Assembly: GCA_910574865.1 (NCBI GenBank)
Contig: CAJTDN010000013.1
Coordinates: 1 to 64,000 of the forward strand
Direction: 5' to 3'
From: Lachnospiraceae bacterium
GTDB lineage: Bacteria > Bacillota > Clostridia > Lachnospirales > Lachnospiraceae
DNA length: 64,000 nt
In this document: positions 9,235-29,471 of the stretch, piece by piece
Numbering within the stretch: position 1 is the first letter of the stretch
Layout of the letters: each line of letters begins with the position of its first letter
The notes under the pieces: generated by a model
Told to the model about the DNA's origin: nothing
Databases searched by the model: none
Seen by the model: the letters and a program-made list of their open reading frames with translations, nothing else
Translations under genes and position numbers: made by a program

Positions 9235-9640
9235 AAGAATCTGCTCCACGAACTGTTTCGGAGTAGCTCAAGGAGTGACTGGCAGTAATTTCTAGGGAGG
9301 GCGCAAGCCCTTCCCTAAGCTCTCGGCGTTTGAGAGCGAAATACACCCTCCGCACAAACCTTCGGTTTATGCTCCGGGGATTTCGCCCTGCCGGGGGCAA
9401 ATTTGCGCAAGCGCAAATTTACAGTCCGAAAGAGCCGGACTGTATTTATCCATGCCGCCCGAAGGATGGGGCGCATGGATGCTGTTGCTGCAAACAGCTA
9501 CATTTTTGGGTGGATACGCAGCAACATTTACGGGACTTCGCAAAAGTCCCTACCTGCGGCTGCCAGAAATAGACAGTCGTGAACCGCCCGGATACGGACA
9601 GCGGTTCGCAGTAAGCCGCCCTATGGCGGTTGTTCACAAA
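9235..9640. other. Gene-free, inverted-repeat-rich stretch upstream of the relaxase (possible oriT)
   Basis: No convincing gene. Several short inverted repeats occur, including GGGCGCAAGCCC, the perfect palindrome AAATTTGCGC-AA-GCGCAAATTT near 9400-9421 and AGTCCG...CGGACT. Clustered inverted repeats just upstream of a relaxase gene are typical of a transfer origin; the nick site cannot be identified by eye. Confidence 0.45.
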
Positions 9641-9689
9641 GAAAACGGCGAAATTAGGCTATCCGCCAAAGAAAAGGAGAAGGGCATTT

Positions 9690-11387
9690 GTGAAAAGAAA
9701 TTCATTTATAGAAATGGCAAAGCTGCATAACTTATCGGGACGCATCACTTATATTTCAAGCCACGCCAAGCAGGAGCATTTGTATGAAGTCTATGCAACA
9801 GAGCCGGACAAAGCATTCTGGCGGGAACTTGCCAAGTGTAATCAGAAGGAATTTAAAAAAAGTGGCACGAACGGGAAGTGTATCGAGGCAAGGGAGCTAA
9901 TGATTGCCCTGCCGGAGAGTTTTATAAACTATGACCATGACTATCTTTTGAAAAAGATGGTGGACGAATTTAAGGAAAAGTATGGCGTGGAGTGTTTTGC
10001 TGCGCTCCACCACAATAAGCGTAAAACAAATCTGCATATCCATATGATATTTGCAGAGAGAAAGCGGTTAGACCAGCCGGAAGAAAAGACTGCTACACGG
10101 AATATGTTTTATGATGAGCAGGGACGCCATGTGCGGACGAAAAAAGAGATACTTGGTGGAGACGGAAATATCCGCAAAGGCTGTAAAATCATCAAAAAAG
10201 GCGAGGTATATGGGCGTAAGATTTTTACCGTAAAAGACGGACGTTTCAAACAGGAGTCTTTTCTGGACGAGGCAAAAGTATTTTATACAGATTTAATCAA
10301 CCAGATGGTAATTGATGATAAAGACAGGCTCAGCATCTTTGATAAAAACGGTCCATACCTTGCGACAAAGAAAATCGGTAAAAACAATCCGAAAGCGGTG
10401 GAAATAAAGGCAGATAATGAAATCCGCATGGAGTGGAACAGGACAGTTGACCGTGCGGTTGTAAGCGGCGTAGCCGAAGCGGAGATTTTGGAGTTGAAGA
10501 AAACAGAGATTACAGATAGGGTAAAGAAATCCGTGGAGCAGAACGGCAATAAGCCGGAACTGTTCGGGGATATTGTTCGGGTGGCGATTGTGCTGTTAGA
10601 AAAATTAATCGCGAAAGTTATGCAGAAGGTAATGGGGTTAGCGGAAAAAGTTATCGGCAAAGCTGCTGATGCCGAAAAGGAAGTACAGGAAGAAACAGAG
10701 ATTTGTATCCATAAAAAAGATGAAACGGTACACCGACAGGAAAGAAAGCAGATACCGTTCCCATTCAATCATAATCAGAAAGAGGAAATGCGGAATAAGA
10801 CGGAACAGCCACAGCAGAAAAACGCTGCAACAGTCAAAAAATCCGTTATTGAACAGATAAAGGCAGAACAAAAATCTGTCCCTGCTGAAACAAAACAGTC
10901 AGAAACGGAAAGACCGCCTAAGCCACAGCCTTCTGTACTGGCGGCTAAATATCCTCGCCTGAAAGAGATTGACGACAGGCTCAAAGAACAGAACAAGGCA
11001 ATTTTTGAGCGTGAGAAAAAGCGGGATATGCTGAAAAAGGAATTATCTGAATGTACGGGTATTTTTAAGAGTGGCAAACGGAAAGAATTACAGCAGGAGA
11101 TTGACCATATCGACAATCAAATTTCCAGTATGAAAAAGAGGCTTTCCTCTATTGTGAGAGAATACAAATTTGATTCTGTTCAGGCATTCTATAAGGAATT
11201 TAACGCAGCCAAGAAAGAATATTTTGATTATCAGGCGGCTCGTACAGAGTGGGAGAAAATTTACGGAGAAAAAACGGTGGATGCAATGAGCGTCAGAGAC
11301 AGGCTCAGACAGAAACAGCAGATGATTAAAGAAAGGGAAGTTACCAGAGCGCATCAGGCGCGGCAGAAAGACAGAGGGGCGAGGTAG
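9690..11387 (+). CDS. MobA/MobL-family relaxase
   Basis: 565 residues from GTG 9690, chosen because AAAAGGAGA lies upstream; an ATG at 9714 is the alternative. The relaxase domain includes a histidine cluster (TNLHIHMIFAERKR) preceded by FAALHHNKRK, matching the two- or three-His metal motif of MobA/MobL enzymes. A long Lys/Glu/Gln-rich coiled-coil tail follows. It should nick the transfer origin and lead mobilization of the excised 22.4-kb element with the help of another element's conjugation machinery. No coupling or mating-pore gene is seen in this element. Confidence 0.85.
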   Translation: MKRNSFIEMAKLHNLSGRITYISSHAKQEHLYEVYATEPDKAFWRELAKCNQKEFKKSGTNGKCIEARELMIALPESFINYDHDYLLKKMVDEFKEKYGVECFAALHHNKRKTNLHIHMIFAERKRLDQPEEKTATRNMFYDEQGRHVRTKKEILGGDGNIRKGCKIIKKGEVYGRKIFTVKDGRFKQESFLDEAKVFYTDLINQMVIDDKDRLSIFDKNGPYLATKKIGKNNPKAVEIKADNEIRMEWNRTVDRAVVSGVAEAEILELKKTEITDRVKKSVEQNGNKPELFGDIVRVAIVLLEKLIAKVMQKVMGLAEKVIGKAADAEKEVQEETEICIHKKDETVHRQERKQIPFPFNHNQKEEMRNKTEQPQQKNAATVKKSVIEQIKAEQKSVPAETKQSETERPPKPQPSVLAAKYPRLKEIDDRLKEQNKAIFEREKKRDMLKKELSECTGIFKSGKRKELQQEIDHIDNQISSMKKRLSSIVREYKFDSVQAFYKEFNAAKKEYFDYQAARTEWEKIYGEKTVDAMSVRDRLRQKQQMIKEREVTRAHQARQKDRGAR

Positions 11388-11495: not shown

Positions 11496-12143
<648 letters not shown>

Positions 12144-12455: not shown

Positions 12456-12711
12456 TGAAGCTATGGTGCATACCTGCCGCCATTCGTTTGCCACGAGAGC
12501 CGTGGAGCTGAGGTTTGACATCAAGACGCTTTCAGAAAACCTCGGTCATGCCAGCGTGGCGATTACCATGAATCGTTACGTCCATCCGTCGATGGAGTTA
12601 AAGCAGCAGAACATGAACAAGCTTTGCTCCCTTTTAGGAGTCAAGGGAGGGGCAGCAAAAACAGGAAGTTCACATAAGTATGGCTTTCCATTGACGAGTA
12701 TCGCACAGTAA
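12448..12711 (+). pseudogene. Tyrosine recombinase (phage-type integrase), C-terminal remnant
   Basis: About 85 residues with the integrase signature: HTCRHSFATRAVE (catalytic Arg), LGHASVAITMNRYVHPS (His and the Tyr nucleophile). The whole N-terminal DNA-binding part and the first catalytic Arg/Lys are missing, so it cannot be active. It marks an older mobile element that decayed at this spot, between the invertible switch and the peptide genes. Confidence 0.8.
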
Positions 12712-13054
12712 ACCACTTTGCGATTGTTGGCAACCATCAAGAGATGTGAAAGAGAATGGGTTAAAAGACCATCTACACCTTAATTGATGCCTATGAGGGA
12801 CAAGATAGTAAAAGTAAGAATGAGCTGTACTCGGATGAGGTTTGAGTTGAAGCTGATTTGTGCCATGAATGCTGCTCTTGTTGTAGAGTTATGGTTTAAT
12901 AAATGCTATGGTGGCTCATTTACATGAGTTATATCATAGAGCAGTGGCACTCTTCGTGATGAAGAGCACTTCGTGTTGCTGTGAGGTATTGCATGAGCGG
13001 GGCGGATGTATGTTCTTGCGGTTGCAAAATTATTAATTCAAAGGAGGTAAAGTC
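12712..13054. other. Leader region with a decayed third peptide-gene copy
   Basis: At 12,847-12,899 the plus strand still encodes the tail V-E-A-D-L-CHECCSCCRVMV with a stop, but an upstream in-frame stop and loss of the N-terminal part make it non-functional. Its stop is 305 bp before that of copy 1. The following spacer (12,900-13,030) holds two small hairpins and is repeated after copy 1. Confidence 0.7.
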
Positions 13055-13204
13055 ATGAAGAACGAGTACGACCAGACCCAGAAGCTTGTGGAGGAATATC
13101 TCGGACAGGTCGAAAGAAAGGCTGATAGGATTTATGAAGATGAAATCAGGGCCGAAGCTGATTTGTGTCATGAATGCTGCTCTTGTTGTAGAGTTATGGT
13201 TTAA
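13055..13204 (+). CDS. Cys-rich precursor peptide, copy 1
   Basis: 49 residues from ATG 13,055 with AAAGGAGGTAA 8 bp upstream, one of the best RBSs in the window. Residues 1-37 form an acidic, helical leader (MKNEYDQTQKLVEEYLGQVE and so on). The end is CHECCSCCRVMV: five cysteines in eight residues. A charged leader with a compact Cys-rich C-terminal core is typical of ribosomally made, post-translationally modified peptides. I do not recognise the family. It lies upstream of, and probably in one transcription unit with, isoprenoid and protease genes. Confidence 0.8.
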   Translation: MKNEYDQTQKLVEEYLGQVERKADRIYEDEIRAEADLCHECCSCCRVMV

Positions 13205-13360
13205 TAAATGCTATGGTGGCTCATTCGCATGAGTTGCATTATAGAGCAGTGGTGATCTTCGTGATGAAGATTGTTTCGTATTGTTATGTAGTATTGCATG
13301 AGCGGGGGCAGATGTATGTTCTTGCGGTTGCAAAATTATTAATTCAAAGGAGGTAAAGTC

Positions 13361-13513
13361 ATGAAGAACGAGTACGACCAGACCCAGAAGCTTGTGGAGG
13401 AATATCTCGGACAGGTCGAAAGAAAGGCTGATAGGATTTATGAAGATGAAATCAGAGCCGAAGCTGATTTATGCCATGAATGCTGCTCTTGTTGTAGAGT
13501 AATGAGTATATAA
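13361..13513 (+). CDS. Cys-rich precursor peptide, copy 2
   Basis: 50 residues from ATG 13,361, 306 bp after copy 1, with the same strong RBS. The leader and cysteine cluster are identical to copy 1; only the last residues differ (RVMSI rather than RVMV). Conservation of the CHECCSCC core with drift at the very end indicates that the cluster, not the final residues, is under selection. A decayed third copy lies at about 12,838-12,899. A 117-bp spacer separates it from the protease gene. Confidence 0.8.
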   Translation: MKNEYDQTQKLVEEYLGQVERKADRIYEDEIRAEADLCHECCSCCRVMSI

Positions 13514-13630
13514 GGTATTTGCTCGAGATAAATGCACCTATCAATATGAGTCGTAATTTTATGATGAGGTATGTGCAGCACAACGATTGCTTTGCATGTA
13601 CCTCATTTTATTTTGTGATCAAGACATACT

Positions 13631-14155
13631 ATGAAATACGTGAAACTTACTTTTATTTTTGTTTATTTTGCGGCATTTGTGTTTCTATCGTTACAAGAGA
13701 CGAGTCTTGAATGGTGGTTATATATATGCATAACAGTACCTGCTGTTACAATATTGGTTGTACTGGTACATGAGATTACTCATTTTTTGTTTTTTCTTAT
13801 GTTTGGTTTTCGTGTCAAGGAAATCAAGGTGGGAATAGTGAGATTGAATTTTGAAAGCAAACGAAGTCGTATCAGCATAGTGGACTCGAATATATTTAGC
13901 GGGTATTGCATTGTTAACAAGGAGCAGAAATCGGATAGAAAAATGGTGGCTCCGCTCGTTTTAGGAGGGGTTTCAGGACTGGTTTTAGGTACTATTTCCT
14001 TGTTTGTTGTGTATAGAAGGGATTATCAGAGCCGAAGTAGCAGCTTTTTATGGGCATTGGTTTTTGTTGGCCTGTATAGTTTTGTTGTAACTTTGTTAAA
14101 TCCAAATAGTGCTGATAACAAAGCAATTAAAAAAATACTATGTGAGAGAGATTGA
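13631..14155 (+). CDS. M50-like intramembrane metalloprotease
   Basis: 174 residues with about four membrane segments. The second segment contains VHEITHFLFF, the HExxH zinc site of membrane-embedded metalloproteases, and a later LLNPNSADN resembles the second conserved N-P-x-x-x-D motif of M50 proteases. It is small compared with full site-2 proteases and has no PDZ domain. Immediately upstream are the precursor peptides and 4 bp downstream the prenol-kinase-like gene, so trimming of the modified peptide at the membrane is a reasonable inference. The RBS before ATG 13,631 is weak. Confidence 0.7.
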   Translation: MKYVKLTFIFVYFAAFVFLSLQETSLEWWLYICITVPAVTILVVLVHEITHFLFFLMFGFRVKEIKVGIVRLNFESKRSRISIVDSNIFSGYCIVNKEQKSDRKMVAPLVLGGVSGLVLGTISLFVVYRRDYQSRSSSFLWALVFVGLYSFVVTLLNPNSADNKAIKKILCERD

Positions 14156-14158
14156 TAT

Positions 14159-15592
14159 ATGCGAGTCGTTGAAGGTTATGCAGTTACATATACATATTTG
14201 ATATCGGTTTTTGTTATTTCATATTATGTCAGCAAAAAAAGCCATAACAATGAATTGTCAAGGAACATCATTCACATATGTGCGGGACTGGGTTGGAACA
14301 TTTTTAAACTGTTTTTTCCAACGAGCATACATCCAATTATAATAAGCACTACATTTGTGCTGCTGACATTGTTTACAGAGATAAAGAAGGTTAGATTCGT
14401 AGAGCGAGAAGATGGAGAGCATGGAACAATTTACTATACACTGGCGATGCTCGTTATGTCTATTTTAGGGTATAAGAATGAGCTATTATTTAATATTTTT
14501 GGTATATCCATTATGTCGCTTTCGTGTGGAGACGCTGCAGCTAATATATTAGGTTCAAGATATGGAAAAAGAAAGATTTATGGGGAAAAGTCGCTTGAAG
14601 GGAGTGTTGGGAGTTTTGTGACTACCCTTGCTGTCATATGGATATTTTCTCAGATTTACCATATAGACTTGGGTATGTCGGGGATAATGCTTCTGGCAAT
14701 TTTATGTTCCTTGACGGAACTGTTCTCTGGAAATTATGACAACATAGCAATATCAACTGTGATGTATTATTTTTCGTATATCCTGCTTACAGACGGGATT
14801 ACATTAACTTTGGGAGTTAGTATTCTAGTTGGGGCAGGAATGTATATTTTTGCATATGTGTTGAAGCTTTTGACAAAACCTGCACTATATATGCTTTTTT
14901 ACATGATAACCTTACTTGTTTATTTTGGTGGTTTGAAAGCTTTTCTGGCTTTGATGCTTGTATTCTTGATACTGATTATGGAGGAAAAAATATTTGGCGA
15001 TAAAACAGAAAAAATCACTAAGGACATAAATAAGGAAATCGGTACGAGAAACGAAATTCAATTGGTCTCTAATTGTGGTGTGGCCATCATTGCTATTTCG
15101 TTGTATGGGATTACGAGTAATCAAGCTTTCTTGGTTGGATTTTTTGCCGCTATAGCAGAGGCGATTGGTGATAGTATTGCATCAGATATTGGAGTTCTCT
15201 CTAAGTCGGAACCGATAGACATATGTACATTTCACAAAATACAAAAGGGGATGTCTGGGGGAGTTTCGACGCTTGGAAGTTTTATGGGAGTAATGATTTG
15301 CGTATACACTGCACTGGTATACATGGTGCTTTATACAGGGGCAATATCAAATGTTTTGGTAATTATTGTATCTGGACTAGCTGGTATATGCTTAGATAGT
15401 GTATTGGGTTCAAGAGTCCAAGTACAATATGTATGTACAGAATGTGGGAAGTATACTGAGAAGGAAATTCACTGCGGTAAGAATACAAGGTATGTCAGAG
15501 GTATGACTTTTTTTTGCAATTCAAGGATAAATTTGCTTTGCAATATAGCGTCATGTTGTTTTGCTTCGCTTATCATTCTTGCGAGAGGATAA
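14159..15592 (+). CDS. Fused prenol kinase-like (SEC59/VTE5) and DUF92 (VTE6-like) membrane protein
   Basis: 477 residues, about 12-14 membrane segments. The N-terminal half carries CGDAAANILGSRYGKRK followed by K-S-L-E-G-S, the signature of CTP-dependent polyprenol/phytol kinases. The C-terminal half carries DUF92 features: EAIGDSIASDIG, GMSGGVSTLGS, CLDSVLGSRVQVQYVC followed by a Cys/His pair, and a final NSRINLLCN. In plants and cyanobacteria VTE5 makes phytyl phosphate and the DUF92 protein VTE6 makes the diphosphate. This fusion could turn a free prenol into its diphosphate in one protein. Substrate is unknown. Confidence 0.75.
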   Translation: MRVVEGYAVTYTYLISVFVISYYVSKKSHNNELSRNIIHICAGLGWNIFKLFFPTSIHPIIISTTFVLLTLFTEIKKVRFVEREDGEHGTIYYTLAMLVMSILGYKNELLFNIFGISIMSLSCGDAAANILGSRYGKRKIYGEKSLEGSVGSFVTTLAVIWIFSQIYHIDLGMSGIMLLAILCSLTELFSGNYDNIAISTVMYYFSYILLTDGITLTLGVSILVGAGMYIFAYVLKLLTKPALYMLFYMITLLVYFGGLKAFLALMLVFLILIMEEKIFGDKTEKITKDINKEIGTRNEIQLVSNCGVAIIAISLYGITSNQAFLVGFFAAIAEAIGDSIASDIGVLSKSEPIDICTFHKIQKGMSGGVSTLGSFMGVMICVYTALVYMVLYTGAISNVLVIIVSGLAGICLDSVLGSRVQVQYVCTECGKYTEKEIHCGKNTRYVRGMTFFCNSRINLLCNIASCCFASLIILARG

Positions 15593-15596
15593 AAAA

Positions 15597-16469
15597 ATGT
15601 TTGGATACTTTAGATTTAATCAAATGTTTGCAAGCCCTAAGATTAAAAGGGTTTATAAAAATTACTATTGTGGAACTTGTTTTGCGTTAGAATACAATTA
15701 TGGCGAAATAACGAGAATAATTTTGAGTTATGATGCGGTGATTTTAGCTTTAACAGCTAGATTATATAAAAACCCAGTACGGGATACTTTGCCCTGTTTT
15801 TTTAAGAAAAACGAAAAGCAACAGTTCTATCAGGTGGAAGGTTGGGAAAAATTAGCTGCAATTAATGTACTGTTGATGAAAGCAAAACTTTCTGATGACA
15901 TCAATGACGAAAAATCATCGAAAGCAAAGGCTGCGACTATTATATTTAGCCGTACAATAAAAAAGGCAGAGAATGATTTCCCTGCACTTGCTTCAATTAT
16001 TGATAAAGGATATTCTCGTATGTATGAGCTAGAGGGAGCCGGGAGTCCGGTCATGGAGATATGCAATGCTTTTTCTGATATGATGGGGAAACTTATGGTT
16101 AAAGCATTTAATATCAATCATGAAAAAGAGAGATTTATAAAGGCAATTGCTAAATGGCTTTATTTTATAGATCAGTTAGATGACTATGATGAGGACGTTA
16201 AAGAGGGAAAATACAATCCTCTTGTGGAGAATTCGATTAGTAAAACGGATTTGATAAATAAAGAGCACAATGTTCTGTTTGAATATTTGAAGGAATTATT
16301 TGCTGAATTTGAAAATATTAAGCAAACGATGGATTTAGCAAATTCCGAAGATAGACTCTTATATGCTGTGCTGAATGAATCTATTCCTGTTGTTACCACA
16401 TCCGTTTTGACGGGAAGGGATTTGCCCCAAATTGCTCATCGAAAAAAAGAGTTGGAATGGAATGAGTAA
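15597..16469 (+). CDS. DUF5685 family protein, possible class-I isoprenoid enzyme
   Basis: 290 residues from ATG 15,597, with GAGAGGA 7 bp upstream. The N-terminus (MFGYFRFNQM, then CGTCFALEYNYGEITRIILS) and the C-terminal WLYFIDQLDDYDEDVKEGKY match the DUF5685 pattern. The Asp-rich D-x-x-D-D segment and all-helical composition recall squalene/phytoene-synthase-like folds, in which such aspartates hold Mg-diphosphate. A prenyl-transfer or cyclization role fits the neighbours, but this is inference, and the family has no established function that I know. Confidence 0.7.
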   Translation: MFGYFRFNQMFASPKIKRVYKNYYCGTCFALEYNYGEITRIILSYDAVILALTARLYKNPVRDTLPCFFKKNEKQQFYQVEGWEKLAAINVLLMKAKLSDDINDEKSSKAKAATIIFSRTIKKAENDFPALASIIDKGYSRMYELEGAGSPVMEICNAFSDMMGKLMVKAFNINHEKERFIKAIAKWLYFIDQLDDYDEDVKEGKYNPLVENSISKTDLINKEHNVLFEYLKELFAEFENIKQTMDLANSEDRLLYAVLNESIPVVTTSVLTGRDLPQIAHRKKELEWNE

Positions 16470-16471
16470 TC

Positions 16472-17473
16472 ATGAAAAAAGTTGATCTCAAAATTATGGT
16501 GTCAACAGCTGATGAATTTAGATGTTGCTTTGACAGAATAGTGAAGGTGTTTTCAGATGTTGACATTACGCATATCGAATTTACAATTTTTGCAGTTGAG
16601 ACAGGTGCAGGAACGATCCGAGATGTTGTTTCATATCTTTCAAAGCATAATGCTCTGAAGGATATTTCCCACGACTGCATATATACATTTGTTTTTGTTA
16701 TTGATCCTGTACCTTCACTAGTTCGAACACTCTTACCATTGAAAGCTTATATTTCTAAAGTAGAGGTTTCTTATCAGACGAAGGATGTAAAAACATTATC
16801 TGATGTTTGTGCCAGATTTGCAAATAAAAAAATTCCTTGTGTCATAGTGCTGCAGGATAAAATGTTAGATGAAGCAATGAATGCCTATAATAGTCTAAAG
16901 CATATTGGGGTACCATTGTATGTATGCGAAAATATAGGGTACAATGATAAATTTGATGAATTGTTTAAAAGTTGGTTGTATGATGTAAATGGATGCCGTA
17001 TTGATATTTTTGCTGACTATGTTTCTGATATGCTGTTGGATTATTGGGGAAATAAATGCAAATATAAATCTTGCTTAACAAGATACTTTACAATTGATTA
17101 TAATGGTGAGATTTATGCATGTAATTTTCGTATGAATCATATAGGCAATATTTTTGGAGTGGATAATCTTAAAGAAATATATAGTACAAATAGTTTTTCA
17201 AAAATAATAACTGACGCAATTTCATCAAGGGAAAAATGTCGCAAGAATTGCAACTACTACTCTCGGTGTCAGGGTGGGTGTTGCCTATCTGCTCCAAAAA
17301 GTATTACGGAGTGTGAGGAAAGAATGATTTTTGATGTTATTGATAACTTGGGTGAAGTAATAAGGAATATTGTATTATACGAAGATTATAGGAATCTTAA
17401 TCCCGCCGTCCAAGATATTATATTGTCTAGTATGGCCTCAAATAAGATTTTTGATGGGAGAGTGAAAATTTGA
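16472..17473 (+). CDS. SPASM-domain protein lacking the radical-SAM cysteine motif
   Basis: 333 residues, 2 bp after DUF5685. The C-terminal 100 residues look like a SPASM iron-sulfur domain: CKYKSCLTRYFTIDYNGEIY with ACNF, then GNIFGVDNLKEIY, then KCRKNCNYYSRCQGGCC. The N-terminal 200 residues have alternating strands and helices as in a TIM-barrel fragment, but there is no C-x3-C-x2-C, so S-adenosylmethionine cleavage is not expected. Similar maturase-derived proteins bind substrate peptides. It may recognise or carry the Cys-rich precursor. It overlaps the next gene by 4 bp. Confidence 0.7.
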   Translation: MKKVDLKIMVSTADEFRCCFDRIVKVFSDVDITHIEFTIFAVETGAGTIRDVVSYLSKHNALKDISHDCIYTFVFVIDPVPSLVRTLLPLKAYISKVEVSYQTKDVKTLSDVCARFANKKIPCVIVLQDKMLDEAMNAYNSLKHIGVPLYVCENIGYNDKFDELFKSWLYDVNGCRIDIFADYVSDMLLDYWGNKCKYKSCLTRYFTIDYNGEIYACNFRMNHIGNIFGVDNLKEIYSTNSFSKIITDAISSREKCRKNCNYYSRCQGGCCLSAPKSITECEERMIFDVIDNLGEVIRNIVLYEDYRNLNPAVQDIILSSMASNKIFDGRVKI

Positions 17474-18036
17474 AAGCAAAGGATGTTGCTTTTGGAGGCA
17501 TCATGATTGCCATGTTCGTGGCAATAGGCATGGTATTTAGTGTTGATATTAGAGTGATGCAAACATATTTGGAAATCTTGAAGACCGTCATTGCCGCCGT
17601 TTGTGTAAGGTTTATATCGGACAAAGCCAGTATTGTTTTCTTAATAGCTTGTTTCTTTGTATGCCTCATTTTGCTACCTATTCACACAACCATTATATAT
17701 AATGTTCCATCGCTGATAGGTGGATTTTTCATTGGTCGTATGAAAAAGAGGATGCGATTTCCTGAATTTATTGTTTTCTTTGTAGTAAACACGGTTATGA
17801 TTTTTTATGAGTTTTTTGTGTACGGATTTTTTATGCAAACTAATTTATTTGAAATGTATACAGCTGGGGCGTCAGATATTGTTAATGGGATAATTAATGT
17901 TCCAGTGTCTGGCTTTTTGACAAAAATTATTTTTATTATGTTTATCCTTGGAGATTCAGCTTTTTCGTCGCTTGTTATATTCAATGTATCAAAATTTGCT
18001 ATACGGCGTTTTGAAGCATTGCAGAACAAGATATAG
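17470..18036 (+). CDS. ECF S-component or Gx-like membrane protein
   Basis: 188 residues from TTG 17,470 overlapping the upstream stop (TTGA). About six membrane segments; the opening (DVAFGGIMIAMFVAIGMVFS) is typical of substrate-binding S components of energy-coupling-factor transporters. The related Gx family (often called heptaprenyl diphosphate synthase component I) sits beside polyprenyl synthases in Bacillota and is an alternative. Import or membrane handling of a prenol precursor would suit the cluster. No dedicated ATPase is present, so it would have to share the cell's general ECF module. Confidence 0.6.
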   Translation: MKAKDVAFGGIMIAMFVAIGMVFSVDIRVMQTYLEILKTVIAAVCVRFISDKASIVFLIACFFVCLILLPIHTTIIYNVPSLIGGFFIGRMKKRMRFPEFIVFFVVNTVMIFYEFFVYGFFMQTNLFEMYTAGASDIVNGIINVPVSGFLTKIIFIMFILGDSAFSSLVIFNVSKFAIRRFEALQNKI

Positions 18037-18109
18037 TTTATGCTTCAGAGTTGTATGATTTATGATTGTCAATGATTATACGCATTATATCGAAAGGTGG
18101 TGTTTGTAT

Positions 18110-18319
18110 ATGATTGTTGTTATTCTGTTGCTGTGCCTGTATGCGTATCTCGGTGATAAAGCTAACCAGTATTGTAAGAGACACGTTTTACATATGGAAA
18201 CTGTTTATGTATTTGATATAAGCTCTTGGCTTACCAATAGAGCAATATGGGGTGTACTTATTGGATGGATAACCATACCTATTGCTGTTGTTATGTGGTT
18301 ATTTGGTGTAAGAGATTAA
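18110..18319 (+). CDS. Small two-segment membrane protein
   Basis: 69 residues from ATG 18,110, selected over an in-frame ATG at 18,062 because AAAGGTGGTG lies just upstream. Two hydrophobic segments (VVILLLCLYAYLG and IWGVLIGWITIPIAVVMWLF) flank a polar loop. I do not recognise the family. It lies between the S-component-like protein and the polyprenyl synthase in the same direction, so it is probably part of the operon. Confidence 0.6.
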   Translation: MIVVILLLCLYAYLGDKANQYCKRHVLHMETVYVFDISSWLTNRAIWGVLIGWITIPIAVVMWLFGVRD

Positions 18320-18356
18320 GGAGCCTGACATTTTGCCGATGGAGTAGTGGGAAAAC

Positions 18357-19241
18357 ATGGATTTTGTCAAAGAATTGAAATTGAATGCAGAAAAAATAGA
18401 TGGTCTTATTTCGCAAGCACTCCCTTCGGAAGCGGGTTTGCAAAAGCGACTTATCGAAGCAATGAATTACAGCATTATGAGTGGAGGGAAAAGGATTCGT
18501 CCAATCTTACTGTTGGAGTCTTATAATTTGTTTGGTGGAAAGGGTAAAGTGGTTGAGCCATTTTTGGTATCAATAGAATTAATTCATTCCTTTTCTCTGG
18601 TGCATGATGATCTTCCGTCTATGGATTACAGTGAATTAAGACGTGGGAGAAAAAGCACTCATTGTGCCTACGGTGAAGCTATGGCCTTATTAGCGGGTGA
18701 TGCAATGCTTAATTATGCTTATGAAGTAGCTTTTAGTGCTTTTGGCATGGGATATGATCGACAAGTTATAAGAGCACTGCGAACGTTGTCTAACAAAACG
18801 GGATTATATGGTATGGGAGGAGGTCAGGCTGTAGAAATTGAAAATAATGATGACCAAATCGGAATAGAGACGATTCATTTCATAAACGAAAACAAGTGTG
18901 GTGCTTTAATTGAAGCGGCTTTAATGATTGGTGCTGAGTTGGCTGGAGCGACAGATGATTATGTTGTGATAATGGAGAATATTGGTTCATGCATAGGAAG
19001 AGCCTTTCAAATACAGGATGATATTTTAGATTTGACAGGTAATAGCATAAAGCTTGGAAAACCTACTGGTATAGATACAAAAAATAATAAATGTACATAC
19101 GCTTCACTCGTTGGTATTGAGGAAGCAAAAGATATGGTGTGCAATCTTTTTTATGAGGCACTTGAAAAGCTTGACGATTTACCATATCGAAATAACTTTC
19201 TTAAATCATTGATCCAGTATTTGATAGATAGAGAATTCTGA
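18357..19241 (+). CDS. Polyprenyl diphosphate synthase (IspA-like)
   Basis: 294 residues. The first Asp-rich motif (LVHDDLPSMDYSELRRGRKS) and the second (FQIQDDILDLTG) of trans-isoprenyl diphosphate synthases are intact, as is the upstream GGKRIRP substrate motif. Size and motifs match farnesyl/geranylgeranyl diphosphate synthases; chain length cannot be fixed by eye. It is the last gene of the cargo operon and is followed by a strong terminator. It would supply C15/C20 diphosphate from IPP and a shorter allylic diphosphate, perhaps one made by the kinase-like protein. Confidence 0.9.
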   Translation: MDFVKELKLNAEKIDGLISQALPSEAGLQKRLIEAMNYSIMSGGKRIRPILLLESYNLFGGKGKVVEPFLVSIELIHSFSLVHDDLPSMDYSELRRGRKSTHCAYGEAMALLAGDAMLNYAYEVAFSAFGMGYDRQVIRALRTLSNKTGLYGMGGGQAVEIENNDDQIGIETIHFINENKCGALIEAALMIGAELAGATDDYVVIMENIGSCIGRAFQIQDDILDLTGNSIKLGKPTGIDTKNNKCTYASLVGIEEAKDMVCNLFYEALEKLDDLPYRNNFLKSLIQYLIDREF

Positions 19242-19242
19242 T

Positions 19243-19279
19243 AAAAAACCGTTCCAAAAACTATGGGAATGGTTTTTTT
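19243..19279 (+). terminator. Rho-independent terminator closing the peptide/isoprenoid operon
   Basis: AAAAAACCGTTCC pairs with GGAATGGTTTTTT and ends in a seven-T run. It starts 2 bp after the polyprenyl synthase stop. Confidence 0.85.
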
Positions 19280-19394
19280 ATTGTTAGGGTATGGAATAGC
19301 TTTAGCGTTGTGTAAAAATCCCCCATTGATACAATAAAAACAGGTTGTCAACCGTTCATTATTAAGCAAAGGGGATACTGTCCGAAAACAAAAT

Positions 19395-19705
19395 TTGGAT
19401 CAGAGACAATCACAAGATGTAGATGTTAAAATGCTAGAAATATACAAGATAATGCGGTTGGAAAGTCTCCAAGGAGTTTTCGGACAGTCTGAGAGGGCTA
19501 AATGGACAATAATAGATTATTGCACACAATATGGAATTGTGAGTATCATATTGTCGAGGCAGAAATCTGTCTGGATCATATTCATCTGTTGGTTGAAATA
19601 CCACCCAAAATGAGTGTGGCGGATTTTATTGGGTATTTAGAGGAAAAAAGTACATTAGTGATACTTGAGAGATATCCGACACACATTTTGATTCGGCAGT
19701 TATAA
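19395..19705 (+). pseudogene. IS200/IS605-family TnpA transposase remnant
   Basis: Two overlapping frames together recall TnpA. The second frame contains LDHIHLLVEIPPKMSVADFI, with the HUH pair (HIH), then GYLEEKSTLVILERYP. The N-terminal part is in a different frame, and the C-terminal part with the catalytic Tyr is absent. It is inactive. Confidence 0.75.
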
Positions 19706-28006: not shown

Positions 28007-28026
28007 CGGTCTGCGTATGCAGACCG
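28007..28026 (+). terminator. Perfect hairpin upstream of the relaxase
   Basis: CGGTCTGC-GTAT-GCAGACCG followed by TTTTG. It can end the upstream transcript or act as an attenuator for the relaxase, whose RBS starts about 10 bp later. Confidence 0.7.
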
Positions 28027-28052
28027 TTTTGTTATGGAGGGAGGATTCCATC

Positions 28053-29471
28053 ATGGCAACCACACGCATCATGCCGCTGCACACCGGCAAAGGCCGCACC
28101 GAAAGCCAGGCGGTCAGTGACATTATCGACTATGTAGCCAACCCACAAAAGACAGACAACGGCAGGCTCGTCACCGGCTTTGCGTGTGACAGCCGAGTAG
28201 CCGACGCCGAGTTTCTGCTGGCAAAACGTGAGTACATTTCCACCACTGGACGGGTACGGGGCGCGGACGATGTGCTGGCCTACCATGTCCGGCAGTCCTT
28301 TGTCCCCGGTGAGATCACCCCGGAAGAAGCCAACCGGCTGGGCGTGGAGTTTGCAAAGCGGTTCACCAAGGGAAATCACGCCTTTGTGGTCTGCACCCAT
28401 ATCGACAAATCCCATATCCATAACCACATCATCTGGAACGCAGTCAATGTGAACTGTGACCGGAAATTCCGAAACTTCTGGGGCAGCACCCGCGCGGTCC
28501 GGCGGCTGAATGATACCATCTGCGTTGAGAATGGCTATTCCATTGTAGAGGACCCAAAACCGCATGGAAAAAGCTACAACAAATGGCTGGGGGACCGGGC
28601 AAAGCCCTCCCACCGGGAACAGCTCCGCGTGATGATTGATCAGGCATTAGAACAGAAACCGGCAGACTTTGACGGGCTGTTAAAGCTGCTTGCGGAAATG
28701 GGTTGTGAGGTGTCACGCCGGGGACAGGCAATCCGGCTCAAAGCCCCCGGCTGGAAGAATGTTGCCCGCATGGATGAAAAGCTGGGACAAGGGTACAGCG
28801 AAGATGAAATACGGGCGGTCCTTGCCGGAGAAAAGCAGCATACGCCCCGCAGAAAAGACGCGGTTTCAACTCCCACTCCCAAGGTCAATCTTCTGGTGGA
28901 TATTCAGGCAAAATTGCAGGCCGGAAAAGGCGCTGGCTATGCGCGCTGGGCAAAGGTATTCAATCTGAAACAGATGGCGCAGACGATGAACTACCTCACC
29001 GAGCATGGCCTGCTGGAATATGCAGTCTTGGAAGAAAAAGCGGCTGCTGCTACCACCCGCCACAATGAGCTGTCGGCGCAGATCAAGGCGGCGGAAACCC
29101 GCATGGCGGAGATAGCCGTACTGCGGACCCACATCATCAATTATGTGAAAACCCGCGAGGTCTATGCGGCCTACCGCAAGGCGGGATATTCCAAGAAATT
29201 TTTAGCGGAACATGAAGCGGATATTTTGCTCCACAAGGCGGCAAAGCAGGCTTTTGACGATTTGGGTATCAAGAAGCTGCCCACCGTCAAGAGCTTGCAG
29301 GCCGAGTACGCAACATTGTTGGAAGGAAAGAAAAAAGACTATGCCGAGTACCGGCGCTCCCGCGAGGAAATGCGGGAACTGCTGACCGCAAAAGCCAATG
29401 TGGACCGGCTGATGGGATATGGGGAGGAACGCCAGAATGACCGGGAAAAGGAACAGGGGCAGGACCGCTGA
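28053..29471 (+). CDS. Relaxase / mobilization nuclease
   Basis: 472 residues from ATG 28,053, chosen for the GGAGGGAGG site just upstream. The catalytic region contains FVVCTHIDKSHIHNHIIWNA, the three-His motif, with the Tyr nucleophile probably in the first 30 residues (IIDYVANP). A second region (VSRRGQAIRLKAPGW) and a coiled-coil C-terminus follow. It would nick the oriT, probably the hairpin region directly downstream at 29,565-29,588, and pilot single-stranded DNA. The family is MOBP-like. Confidence 0.88.
   Translation: MATTRIMPLHTGKGRTESQAVSDIIDYVANPQKTDNGRLVTGFACDSRVADAEFLLAKREYISTTGRVRGADDVLAYHVRQSFVPGEITPEEANRLGVEFAKRFTKGNHAFVVCTHIDKSHIHNHIIWNAVNVNCDRKFRNFWGSTRAVRRLNDTICVENGYSIVEDPKPHGKSYNKWLGDRAKPSHREQLRVMIDQALEQKPADFDGLLKLLAEMGCEVSRRGQAIRLKAPGWKNVARMDEKLGQGYSEDEIRAVLAGEKQHTPRRKDAVSTPTPKVNLLVDIQAKLQAGKGAGYARWAKVFNLKQMAQTMNYLTEHGLLEYAVLEEKAAAATTRHNELSAQIKAAETRMAEIAVLRTHIINYVKTREVYAAYRKAGYSKKFLAEHEADILLHKAAKQAFDDLGIKKLPTVKSLQAEYATLLEGKKKDYAEYRRSREEMRELLTAKANVDRLMGYGEERQNDREKEQGQDR

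Follow-up and report, generated by a model that had tools for sequence, protein, structure and literature searches.

A rare gene cluster combining isoprenoid enzymes with a Cys-rich peptide points to an undescribed bacterial protein-modification system

Results

The stretch of DNA analysed here (64,000 nucleotides from a Lachnospiraceae bacterium, henceforth ‘the window’) contains a rare gene cluster in which a Cys-rich peptide is encoded together with isoprenoid enzymes and a protein of the DUF5685 family. Two new findings concern DUF5685: the link of the family to Cys-rich tails at the C-terminus reaches well past the operon in the window, and, judged by profile comparison, DUF5685 appears to be a remote relative of the squalene/phytoene synthases, with both Asp-rich motifs in register. 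Together with the rest of the analysis, this points to an undescribed bacterial protein-modification system. The operon comprises the following features:

12784..12896, + strand: degenerate third precursor copy with a stop inside; the frame reads ELYSDEV, a stop and then VEADLCHECCSCCRVMV (56% identity, one TGA)
13055..13204, + strand: precursor peptide 1, 49 aa, C-terminal end CHECCSCCRVMV (ORF; relatives in L126 by BLAST and in L127 by position and composition)
13361..13513, + strand: precursor peptide 2, 50 aa, C-terminal end CHECCSCCRVMSI (ORF)
13631..14155, + strand: M50-like membrane metalloprotease with HEITH (PF02163, E 1.1e-6)
14159..15592, + strand: CTP_transf_1/prenol-kinase-like half fused to a DUF92 (VTE6-like) half (Pfam)
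15597..16469, + strand: DUF5685 protein, squalene/phytoene-synthase-like, predicted Cys-tail modifier (DUF5685, E 4e-44; motifs DDINDE and DQLDDYDED)
16472..17473, + strand: SPASM-only protein without the radical-SAM CX3CX2C (SPASM barely over the Pfam cut-off)
17470..18036, + strand: ECF-S-like membrane protein (ECF-S below the Pfam cut-off)
18062..18319, + strand: small membrane protein, 85 aa (ORF; DltX below the Pfam cut-off)
18357..19241, + strand: FPP synthase-type polyprenyl diphosphate synthase (Pfam, NCBIfam)
19240..19285, + strand: terminator-like hairpin and T run (z -3.45)

ORF and profile analysis of the window thus bore out the first-pass annotation, which had claimed tandem precursors at the head of an operon-like gene run closed by a terminator: all the genes it listed are present, in this order and on the + strand. 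The hairpin had been left unlisted by a pattern scan because its loop of 10 exceeds the limit of 8 in that scan. The intergenic distances, counted from the M50 gene on, are 3, 4, 2, -4, 25 and 37 bp; the claimed maximum spacing of 74 bp has to be corrected, as 156 bp separate the two precursors and 117 bp separate the second precursor from the M50 gene. The start of the system had been placed at 12838 because of the third precursor copy, which is 5'-degenerate and in which VEADLCHECCSCCRVMV is still readable behind the stop.

Both intact precursors end in CHECCSCC followed by 4-5 residues, each is preceded by AAAGGAGG, and they lie within a direct repeat of ~306 bp, differing by four synonymous and no non-synonymous changes over 48 shared codons. 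Two homologous operons, L126 (in genome G359) and L127 (in genome G566), come from two further families of this class. Both start with a divergent Cys-rich precursor, which in L127 was identified by its place and composition and not by BLAST. Because the window precursors differ synonymously only and a Cys-rich precursor also heads both of these distant operons, the operon is real, beyond chance, and an origin by chance or as a pseudogene is ruled out. The four precursors, which come from three operons only, share E14, Y15, Q18, D24, E30, D36, C38, C42 and C44, while the remainder of the core differs; a short precursor with a conserved leader and a variable core, and with candidate modifying enzymes alongside, is the make-up of a RiPP system. 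Lanthipeptide, thiopeptide and radical-SAM peptide classes were set aside, as no such enzymes were recognised (Pfam, NCBIfam) and CX3CX2C is absent. Retained in L126 and L127 are the precursor, the M50-like protein, DUF5685 (64 and 48%), the SPASM protein (35 and 25%) and both kinase halves, which are two separate genes in L127. The L127 operon ends in a cis-prenyltransferase (PF01255) where the window operon ends in FPP synthase. The 33 kb surrounding the L126 operon yielded no relative of FPPS or of the cis-prenyltransferase; near L127, no relative of FPPS was found.

Homology assigns several of the remaining genes to isoprenoid supply and peptide handling. The terminal enzyme scores 279.6 against the 275-bit cut-off of NCBIfam FPPsyn, has DDLPSMD and DDILD intact, and is 51% identical to a second copy elsewhere in its own genome. 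The fusion protein combines a C-terminal DUF92 half (PF01940, E 5e-41) with an N-terminal half that, scanned alone, matches CTP_transf_1 (PF01148, E 1.6e-5; 25.4 against a cut-off of 24 bits, which only one of ten aligned N halves reached), so that both halves of the VTE5/VTE6 arrangement are present as predicted kinases. The M50 match is barely over the Pfam cut-off (28.6 against 27.2 bits); HExxH is present and is kept in all three operons. The ECF-S-like protein is remotely related to the membrane protein encoded downstream of the chromosomal DUF5685 loci, and has a counterpart in L126 with none found in L127; relatives of the small membrane protein were found in neither operon.

DUF5685 is likely to be the isoprenoid-handling enzyme of the operon. 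When 33 DUF5685 proteins were compared with three SQS_PSY proteins by hhalign, the two groups showed similarity at the superfamily level (P 4.4e-6, score 49.0), and the alignment brought together the Asp motifs (DDxxDE and D-x3-D) and a G-x-Y-x-P element. Among the controls, 100 column shuffles scored 21.1 at most, reversed alignments scored 17.6-17.8, and FPPS and J-proteins scored 16.1 and 17.2, respectively. The signal was weak with the three operon DUF5685 proteins alone (P 0.0034, probability 10%), stronger when only the 30 chromosomal proteins were used (P 2.1e-4, probability 46%), and P was 0.0013-0.021 against single SQS proteins. SQS and FPPS, which are groups held to be related, gave no signal against each other (P 0.37), and the comparison therefore misses true distant relatives. 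In Pfam, SQS_PSY was reached by only 2 of 22 DUF5685 members (best E 0.016), with no match up to E 10 for the member in the window, and one of the 22 matched LANC_like better than SQS_PSY (E 0.0045). No convincing sequence relative turned up in the PDB: one search gave none and a second gave weak unrelated ones (best E 0.1).

Chromosomal DUF5685 genes are followed directly by a gene for a Cys-tailed protein, which in most cases has a DnaJ domain, at 29 of 30 loci in the family of the window and at 24 of 29 in the class. The first-pass annotation had named the wide occurrence of the same enzymes without a Cys-rich ORF nearby as evidence against its proposed link. On this the evidence is divided: DUF5685 had a Cys-tailed neighbour at 53 of the 59 loci inspected (the best-scoring ones, not a random draw) and none adjacent at the other six, but the kinase genes lacked DUF5685 nearby in 8 of 10 places inspected. 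As raw counts in which kinship is ignored, 105 of 211 genomes of the class contain both DUF5685 and a Cys-tailed gene, 11 and 3, respectively, only one of them, and 92 neither; 116 have a DUF5685 match. The two genes are adjacent in 99 of the 105 genomes, and re-inspection of ten DUF5685-only genomes left four with no Cys tail nearby. As background, at least 5 Cys in the last 40 aa occur in 3 of 235 ORFs from 17 stretches, two of the three being Cys-tailed neighbours of DUF5685, and in 2 of 53 ORFs of the window. A DnaJ domain was present in 23 of 25 Cys-tailed proteins scanned, and the two without it, L139 (beside DUF5685) and L222 (unlinked), keep the tail. Genome G397 has a J-profile match, no DUF5685 match and a tail without Cys; in G359 the J-tail profile has no match and the sole DUF5685 is that of the operon.

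Enzymes of the SQS family couple two prenyl chains to each other, so DUF5685 could be a lipid synthase and not a protein modifier: it would release an isoprenoid (head-to-head or cyclised), and the Cys-rich peptide or tail would act only as a regulator, chaperone or carrier with nothing bound to it covalently. SQS_PSY relatives do make C30/C40 hydrocarbons, DUF5685 keeps both Asp-rich motifs, and the substrate of such a synthase would come from the prenol kinases and FPPS. We nevertheless consider this rather unlikely: DUF5685 is paired with a J-protein, a J-less protein or a 50-aa peptide, and what these changing partners have in common is the Cys-rich tail; moreover, a dedicated peptide with an M50-like protease in 3/3 operons suggests peptide processing.

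A role in metal binding was weighed against modification of the tails by DUF5685. The tails contain many closely spaced Cys, C25, C28 and C67 are invariant in 22 DUF5685 proteins (with an N-terminal YCGxC), and the ligand pattern CX2-3CX5CX3C is kept in 3/3 SPASM proteins, all three of which lack the CX3CX2C cluster motif. The tails could thus bind a metal or Fe-S cluster loaded by DUF5685 (through YCGxC and C67) and the SPASM-only protein, with the isoprenoid genes serving otherwise. The SQS-like motifs of DUF5685 argue against this, as do the isoprenoid kinases that accompany the peptide in 3/3 operons and the chain-making enzymes that differ in two, and we regard it as improbable.

Searches beyond the three operons show how rare the cluster is. 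The CHECCxCC pattern occurred in 51 stretches of genome contigs and 13 of viral contigs; with the motif frame read in all 64, none contained a precursor look-alike by eye (in L043 a 233-codon open frame ends with CHECCKCCTCDL), and none encoded DUF5685 or another operon protein except for a 24%-identical FPPS-type match in L074. The pattern, which would miss less similar cores, therefore yields no further precursor. The SPASM protein had no match in genome contigs, viral contigs, plasmids or phages, and occurred in 1 of 250 genomes of the family, its own. No operon DNA was found in plasmids, and 11 other genomes of the genus gave only short FPPS-region matches, in four of them. In each of the two sister families the operon-type DUF5685 profile detected a single genome (of 38 and 48, respectively), in both cases the one already known to carry the operon; in a phylum sample it detected 2 of 398, namely the own genome and G826, where the protein is a chromosomal-type copy beside a Cys-tailed protein. 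Neither DUF5685 nor the kinase fusion was found in viral contigs.

Discussion

The link between isoprenoids and a Cys-rich peptide claimed in the first-pass annotation gains support from synteny in three lineages, the cis-prenyltransferase of L127 and the SQS/PSY-like profile of DUF5685. That annotation had neither recognised DUF5685 as the probable enzyme for isoprenoid handling nor noticed the Cys-tailed neighbours of its relatives. We infer, as that annotation did, S-prenylation and trimming at the membrane. Motifs and gene neighbourhoods give an even chance that the operon makes and handles a ribosomal peptide with an isoprenoid-modified Cys-rich C-terminus, and that DUF5685 binds a prenyl diphosphate and modifies Cys-rich tails, normally on a chaperone-type protein and here on a dedicated peptide. 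By homology, the FPP synthase, or the cis-prenyltransferase in the sister operon, would make the prenyl diphosphate, which the two kinase domains could also make or recycle from the free alcohol. DUF5685, with two Asp-rich motifs and three invariant cysteines, would bind it and transfer the prenyl group to cysteine thiols in the tail, a step that metal-thiolate activation may assist. The SPASM-only protein may bind or present the precursor, whose leader (EYxxQ...D...E) would be the recognition part, and the M50-like protease would cut the membrane-held product. The same chemistry is predicted on the Cys-rich tail of the DnaJ-type protein in many genomes of the class.

A wider proposal, which we put forward tentatively and at somewhat less than even chances, is that DUF5685 founds a bacterial system of Cys prenylation (or another isoprenoid thioether) evolved from squalene/phytoene synthases. 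In many genomes of the class this system would use a C-terminal cysteine string to give a DnaJ-type protein a lipid anchor; in rare operons it would have been captured, together with its own protease and source of prenyl donor, to make a prenylated Cys-rich peptide that would represent a new class of RiPP. If true, an SQS-like family tied to Cys-rich tails adds a new protein lipidation chemistry, provides a common uncharacterised family (found in 116 of the 211 class genomes) with a function, explains the Cys-tailed J-proteins and defines a new peptide class. In the literature surveyed in part (titles and opening lines of abstracts, with preprints and most subscription papers outside the survey), no account was found of Cys prenylation in bacteria, of what DUF5685 does or of bacterial J-proteins with Cys tails; DUF5685 appeared in one paper, as a bare domain name.

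All the trans-IDS-like peptide prenyltransferases yet characterised in bacteria modify Trp, according to section 9 of PMC13290415, where ComQ is also described as a trans-IDS-like enzyme with a peptide as its substrate. A ComX-like prenylated signalling peptide or bacteriocin, with the FPPS-type enzyme and not DUF5685 as the prenyltransferase, would fit this precedent and the XRE-type regulators encoded divergently from the L126 and L127 precursors. We consider it highly improbable, given that FPPS relatives were not found near either of these operons, the window enzyme scores over an FPP synthase cut-off, all four precursors lack Trp and no peptide exporter was recognised in the window operon by Pfam scan. 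Like ComX/ComQ, the ChrPC P domain and PalQ, the system that we favour, in which DUF5685 modifies Cys-rich tails, pairs a ribosomal peptide with an enzyme that is assigned to the isoprenoid synthase superfamily and has two Asp-rich motifs, but here the candidate is the SQS/PSY-like DUF5685 and the presumed targets are Cys.

DUF5685 likewise resembles the squalene/phytoene synthase family (PF00494) in its remote profile, with DDxxDE and D-x3-D...G-x-Y-x-P aligning, and differs from it by the N-terminal YCGxC, C67 and the genetic tie to Cys-rich tails. The SPASM protein near a short precursor recalls grasp-with-SPASM and radical SAM/SPASM RiPP systems, with weak profile matches far below the cut-offs, but the window operon lacks CX3CX2C and no ATP-grasp was recognised in it by Pfam scan. 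The DUF92 and CTP_transf_1 matches reproduce the two-kinase arrangement of the phytol/farnesol salvage kinases VTE5 and VTE6, here fused and sited in a peptide operon. Eukaryotic lipid-anchored J-proteins include farnesylated Ydj1/DNAJA1 and the cysteine-string protein DNAJC5, and are lipidated by alpha/beta prenyltransferases or DHHC acyltransferases. By analogy with these, a DnaJ-domain protein with a C-terminal Cys element might reach a comparable outcome in bacteria, with DUF5685 as the candidate enzyme in place of the eukaryotic ones.

A conserved operon with Cys-rich precursors

The first-pass annotation had proposed a Cys-rich peptide system tied to isoprenoid enzymes, and each gene in its list for the operon was confirmed. 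The features concerned are:

12784-12896: third precursor copy, degenerate, upstream of the two intact copies
13055-19285 (+): operon of two Cys-rich precursor genes, M50-like protease, CTP_transf_1/DUF92 kinase fusion, DUF5685, SPASM-only protein, ECF-S-like protein, small membrane protein and FPP synthase (FPPS), closed by a terminator

The intact precursors (49 and 50 amino acids) lie inside a tandem repeat of ~306 bp, with a AAAGGAGG site accompanying each, and comparison of their 48 shared codons shows four synonymous differences and none that is non-synonymous. The tight spacing previously described (-4 to +74 bp) holds from the M50 gene onward, where the gaps are 3, 4, 2, -4, 25 and 37 bp, but not before it, where the spacers are 156 and 117 bp. 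The hairpin closing the operon folds at -14.4 kcal/mol (z -3.45). The G+C content of the operon is 35.6%, compared to 47.1% for the window, and the genes around it include Pfam matches to a resolvase, a phage-integrase fragment, an IS200-type transposase fragment and a relaxase (window 11529-12143, 12463-12711, 19502-19705 and 28017-29471), suggesting that this AT-rich operon was acquired by horizontal transfer. A large ORF at 9630-11387 looks relaxase-like by eye and has no Pfam match.

Close relatives of the operon are rare. The SPASM protein was detected in one of 250 genomes of the window genome's family (presumably Lachnospiraceae), its own, and a search of genome contigs for it found none. 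Of 391 genomes searched from its class (presumably Clostridia), 11 had a match to the kinase fusion, own included, and comparison of the ten other places with the window operon proteins revealed the operon in two, L126 (genome G359) and L127 (G566). L126 encodes a 54-residue precursor ending in ...EADLCSEFCGCLRVCCISLT (BLAST 51% over 45 aa) together with M50, the fusion (52%), DUF5685 (64%), SPASM (35%) and ECF-S-like (39%) proteins. The L127 precursor (52 aa, ...DCCMYECGCYKCCCCRMLY) was missed by BLAST and recognised because it precedes the M50 gene; this operon also encodes DUF5685 (48%) and SPASM (25%) proteins, has its two kinase parts in different genes and includes a cis-prenyltransferase gene (PF01255, E 2e-77). 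A divergently oriented XRE-type regulator gene lies upstream of the precursor in both, and M1, E14, Y15, Q18, D24, E30, D36, C38, C42 and C44 are kept in all four precursor sequences. The stretches around the two operons contained no relative of FPPS or the small membrane protein, that around L126 none of the cis-prenyltransferase and that around L127 none of the ECF-S-like protein. A MatE-family transporter gene follows the L126 operon (L126:6540-8216).

The other eight kinase places (L128-L135) carry prenol-kinase-like genes, six of them with DUF92 (one fused). No DUF5685 was found within their 5-19 kb stretches, be it where both kinase genes are present (L128, L129, L130, L132, L133), where the fusion is diverged (L131) or where the first kinase half only was matched (L134, L135). 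A profile of the three operon-type DUF5685 sequences revealed no further operon (matches in 1 of 38, 1 of 48 and 2 of 398 genomes).

Coupling of DUF5685 to Cys-tailed proteins

Chromosomal DUF5685 genes are coupled to genes for proteins with Cys-rich tails, defined as at least five Cys in the last 40 residues. Thirty family loci were read, the own locus L001 plus the 29 top matches elsewhere (175 of 299 genomes had a match). The next gene encodes such a protein at 29 of them; at the exception, L033, an ECF-S-like gene comes next. In the class, 29 more loci were taken from the top Pfam matches, and 24 of these show the arrangement. All 59 were chosen by score rather than at random. Tails such as CCDLWCADTLCECMGGDLCSCM and CMKLCIANLVCNLCCGGxGLCC are typical. 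When ORFs of at least 100 aa were called greedily as background, 3 of 235 in 17 stretches reached five Cys, two being DUF5685 neighbours (in L139 and L140), as did 2 of 53 in the window, one being the kinase fusion itself. A DnaJ domain was present in 23 of 25 Cys-tailed proteins scanned (23 from the 59 loci, plus L139 and L222); those of L139 (G826, adjoining DUF5685) and L222 (G428, unlinked to it) lack the domain and keep the tail (...CCCESMGGDLITCC and ...CCECMGGDLIECC). The latter (L222:1184-1651; 155 aa, without Pfam domain) has 18 Cys in its last 40 residues and lies ~19 kb from the G428 DUF5685 gene. In the window's own genome, a second Cys-tailed match to the J-protein profile (L224:1568-2389, contig C6; QCSNLCMTMMLCNFFGGGCFCPIFCV) stands behind a zinc-ribbon gene with no adjoining DUF5685. 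By eye, a small zinc-ribbon-like protein (CPxCxQKIRVPKGKGRIEIxCPKC type) is encoded directly 5' of DUF5685 in L009, L010, L011, L014, L016, L024, L027, L029 and L031.

Among 211 class genomes, 116 have DUF5685 and 108 match the C-terminal J-protein profile: 105 have both, 11 have DUF5685 alone, 3 have the J-profile match alone and 92 have neither (Fisher p 9e-43, kinship of genomes ignored). Of the 105, 99 have the J-profile match at most 1.5 kb downstream of DUF5685 on the same strand. The Cys-tailed protein is present and unlinked in G345 and G428. All genomes with DUF5685 alone were inspected except G359 (ten in total); G359 carries an operon and had no other DUF5685 match in the class genome search. 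A Cys-tailed J-type protein missed by the profile lies near DUF5685 in G333, G341, G493 and G497; G373, G376, G400 and G495 had neither a J-profile match nor an ORF with at least six terminal Cys; and in G444 and G461 the inspected stretch stops at the contig end. As for J-profile-only genomes, the tail has zero Cys in G397 and is Cys-rich in G406 and G439 (65% and 61% complete).

An ECF-S-like membrane protein is encoded downstream of DUF5685 within the flank at 15 of 30 family loci (six of these proteins helped build the search profile) and 19 of 29 class loci. By profile comparison it is remotely related to the ECF-S-like protein of the operon (P 3.1e-5, versus 0.036-0.42 for three other membrane-protein profiles; 0.0013 for the operon protein against L139 and L033 only). 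DUF5685, the Cys-tailed partner and often this ECF-S-like protein thus make up one unit, and the operon looks like a specialised version of it.

Predicted identity of DUF5685

A literature search found DUF5685 mentioned in one paper, as a bare name. D100, D104, D192, D196, D200, C25, C28, C67 and N207 are invariant in its alignment (22 of 34 sequences). In Pfam scans, two of 22 DUF5685 proteins weakly matched squalene/phytoene synthase (best E 0.016) and one LANC_like (0.0045); the window protein matched neither. Aligning a 33-member DUF5685 profile (30 chromosomal and 3 operon proteins) with a profile built from three SQS_PSY proteins yielded P 4.4e-6, a probability of 87% and a score of 49.0, compared to a maximum of 21.1 in 100 column shuffles, 17.6-17.8 for reversed alignments and 10-17 against FPPS, J-protein, kinase, DUF92, M50 and ECF-S-like profiles. 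The alignment places DDxxDE opposite DDSVDE, and the second motif plus G-x-Y-N-P-L opposite RDIGEDRRRGRRYIPL. Chromosomal sequences alone gave P 2.1e-4 (probability 46%), the three operon sequences alone P 0.0034 (10%) and single SQS proteins P 0.0013-0.021. These scores make a good case for an SQS/PSY-like assignment of the family and a weak one for the operon branch considered by itself; that this branch belongs to DUF5685 is certain from its E value of 4e-44.

Discussion

Isoprenoid modification of the cysteines is our best reading, to which we give roughly an even chance. Two rivals stand out: lipid synthesis in which the Cys-rich protein is a helper, and Cys-rich tails that bind metal or Fe-S. 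Under isoprenoid modification, the prenyl donor would come from FPPS in the window, the cis-prenyltransferase in L127 or the kinases in all three operons. DUF5685, rather than FPPS, would act on the tail, for which it is the best candidate because no other isoprenoid-synthase-like protein is shared by the three operons and because it is linked to Cys-rich tails elsewhere. In the SPASM-only protein CX2-3CX5CX3C is retained and CX3CX2C is absent, which suggests a binding or presenting role, and M50 may cut the membrane-held product; we infer every attachment and cutting step.

Eukaryotic J-proteins include farnesylated and Cys-string types, to which the Cys-tailed J-proteins may be likened by analogy. 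PMC9782597 describes two-kinase prenol salvage by VTE5 and VTE6 in plants, along with a cyanobacterial VTE5. According to a 2026 review (PMC13290415), Trp is the residue modified by every trans-IDS-like peptide prenyltransferase characterised (ComQ, ChrPC, PalQ), whereas the precursors described here contain no Trp.
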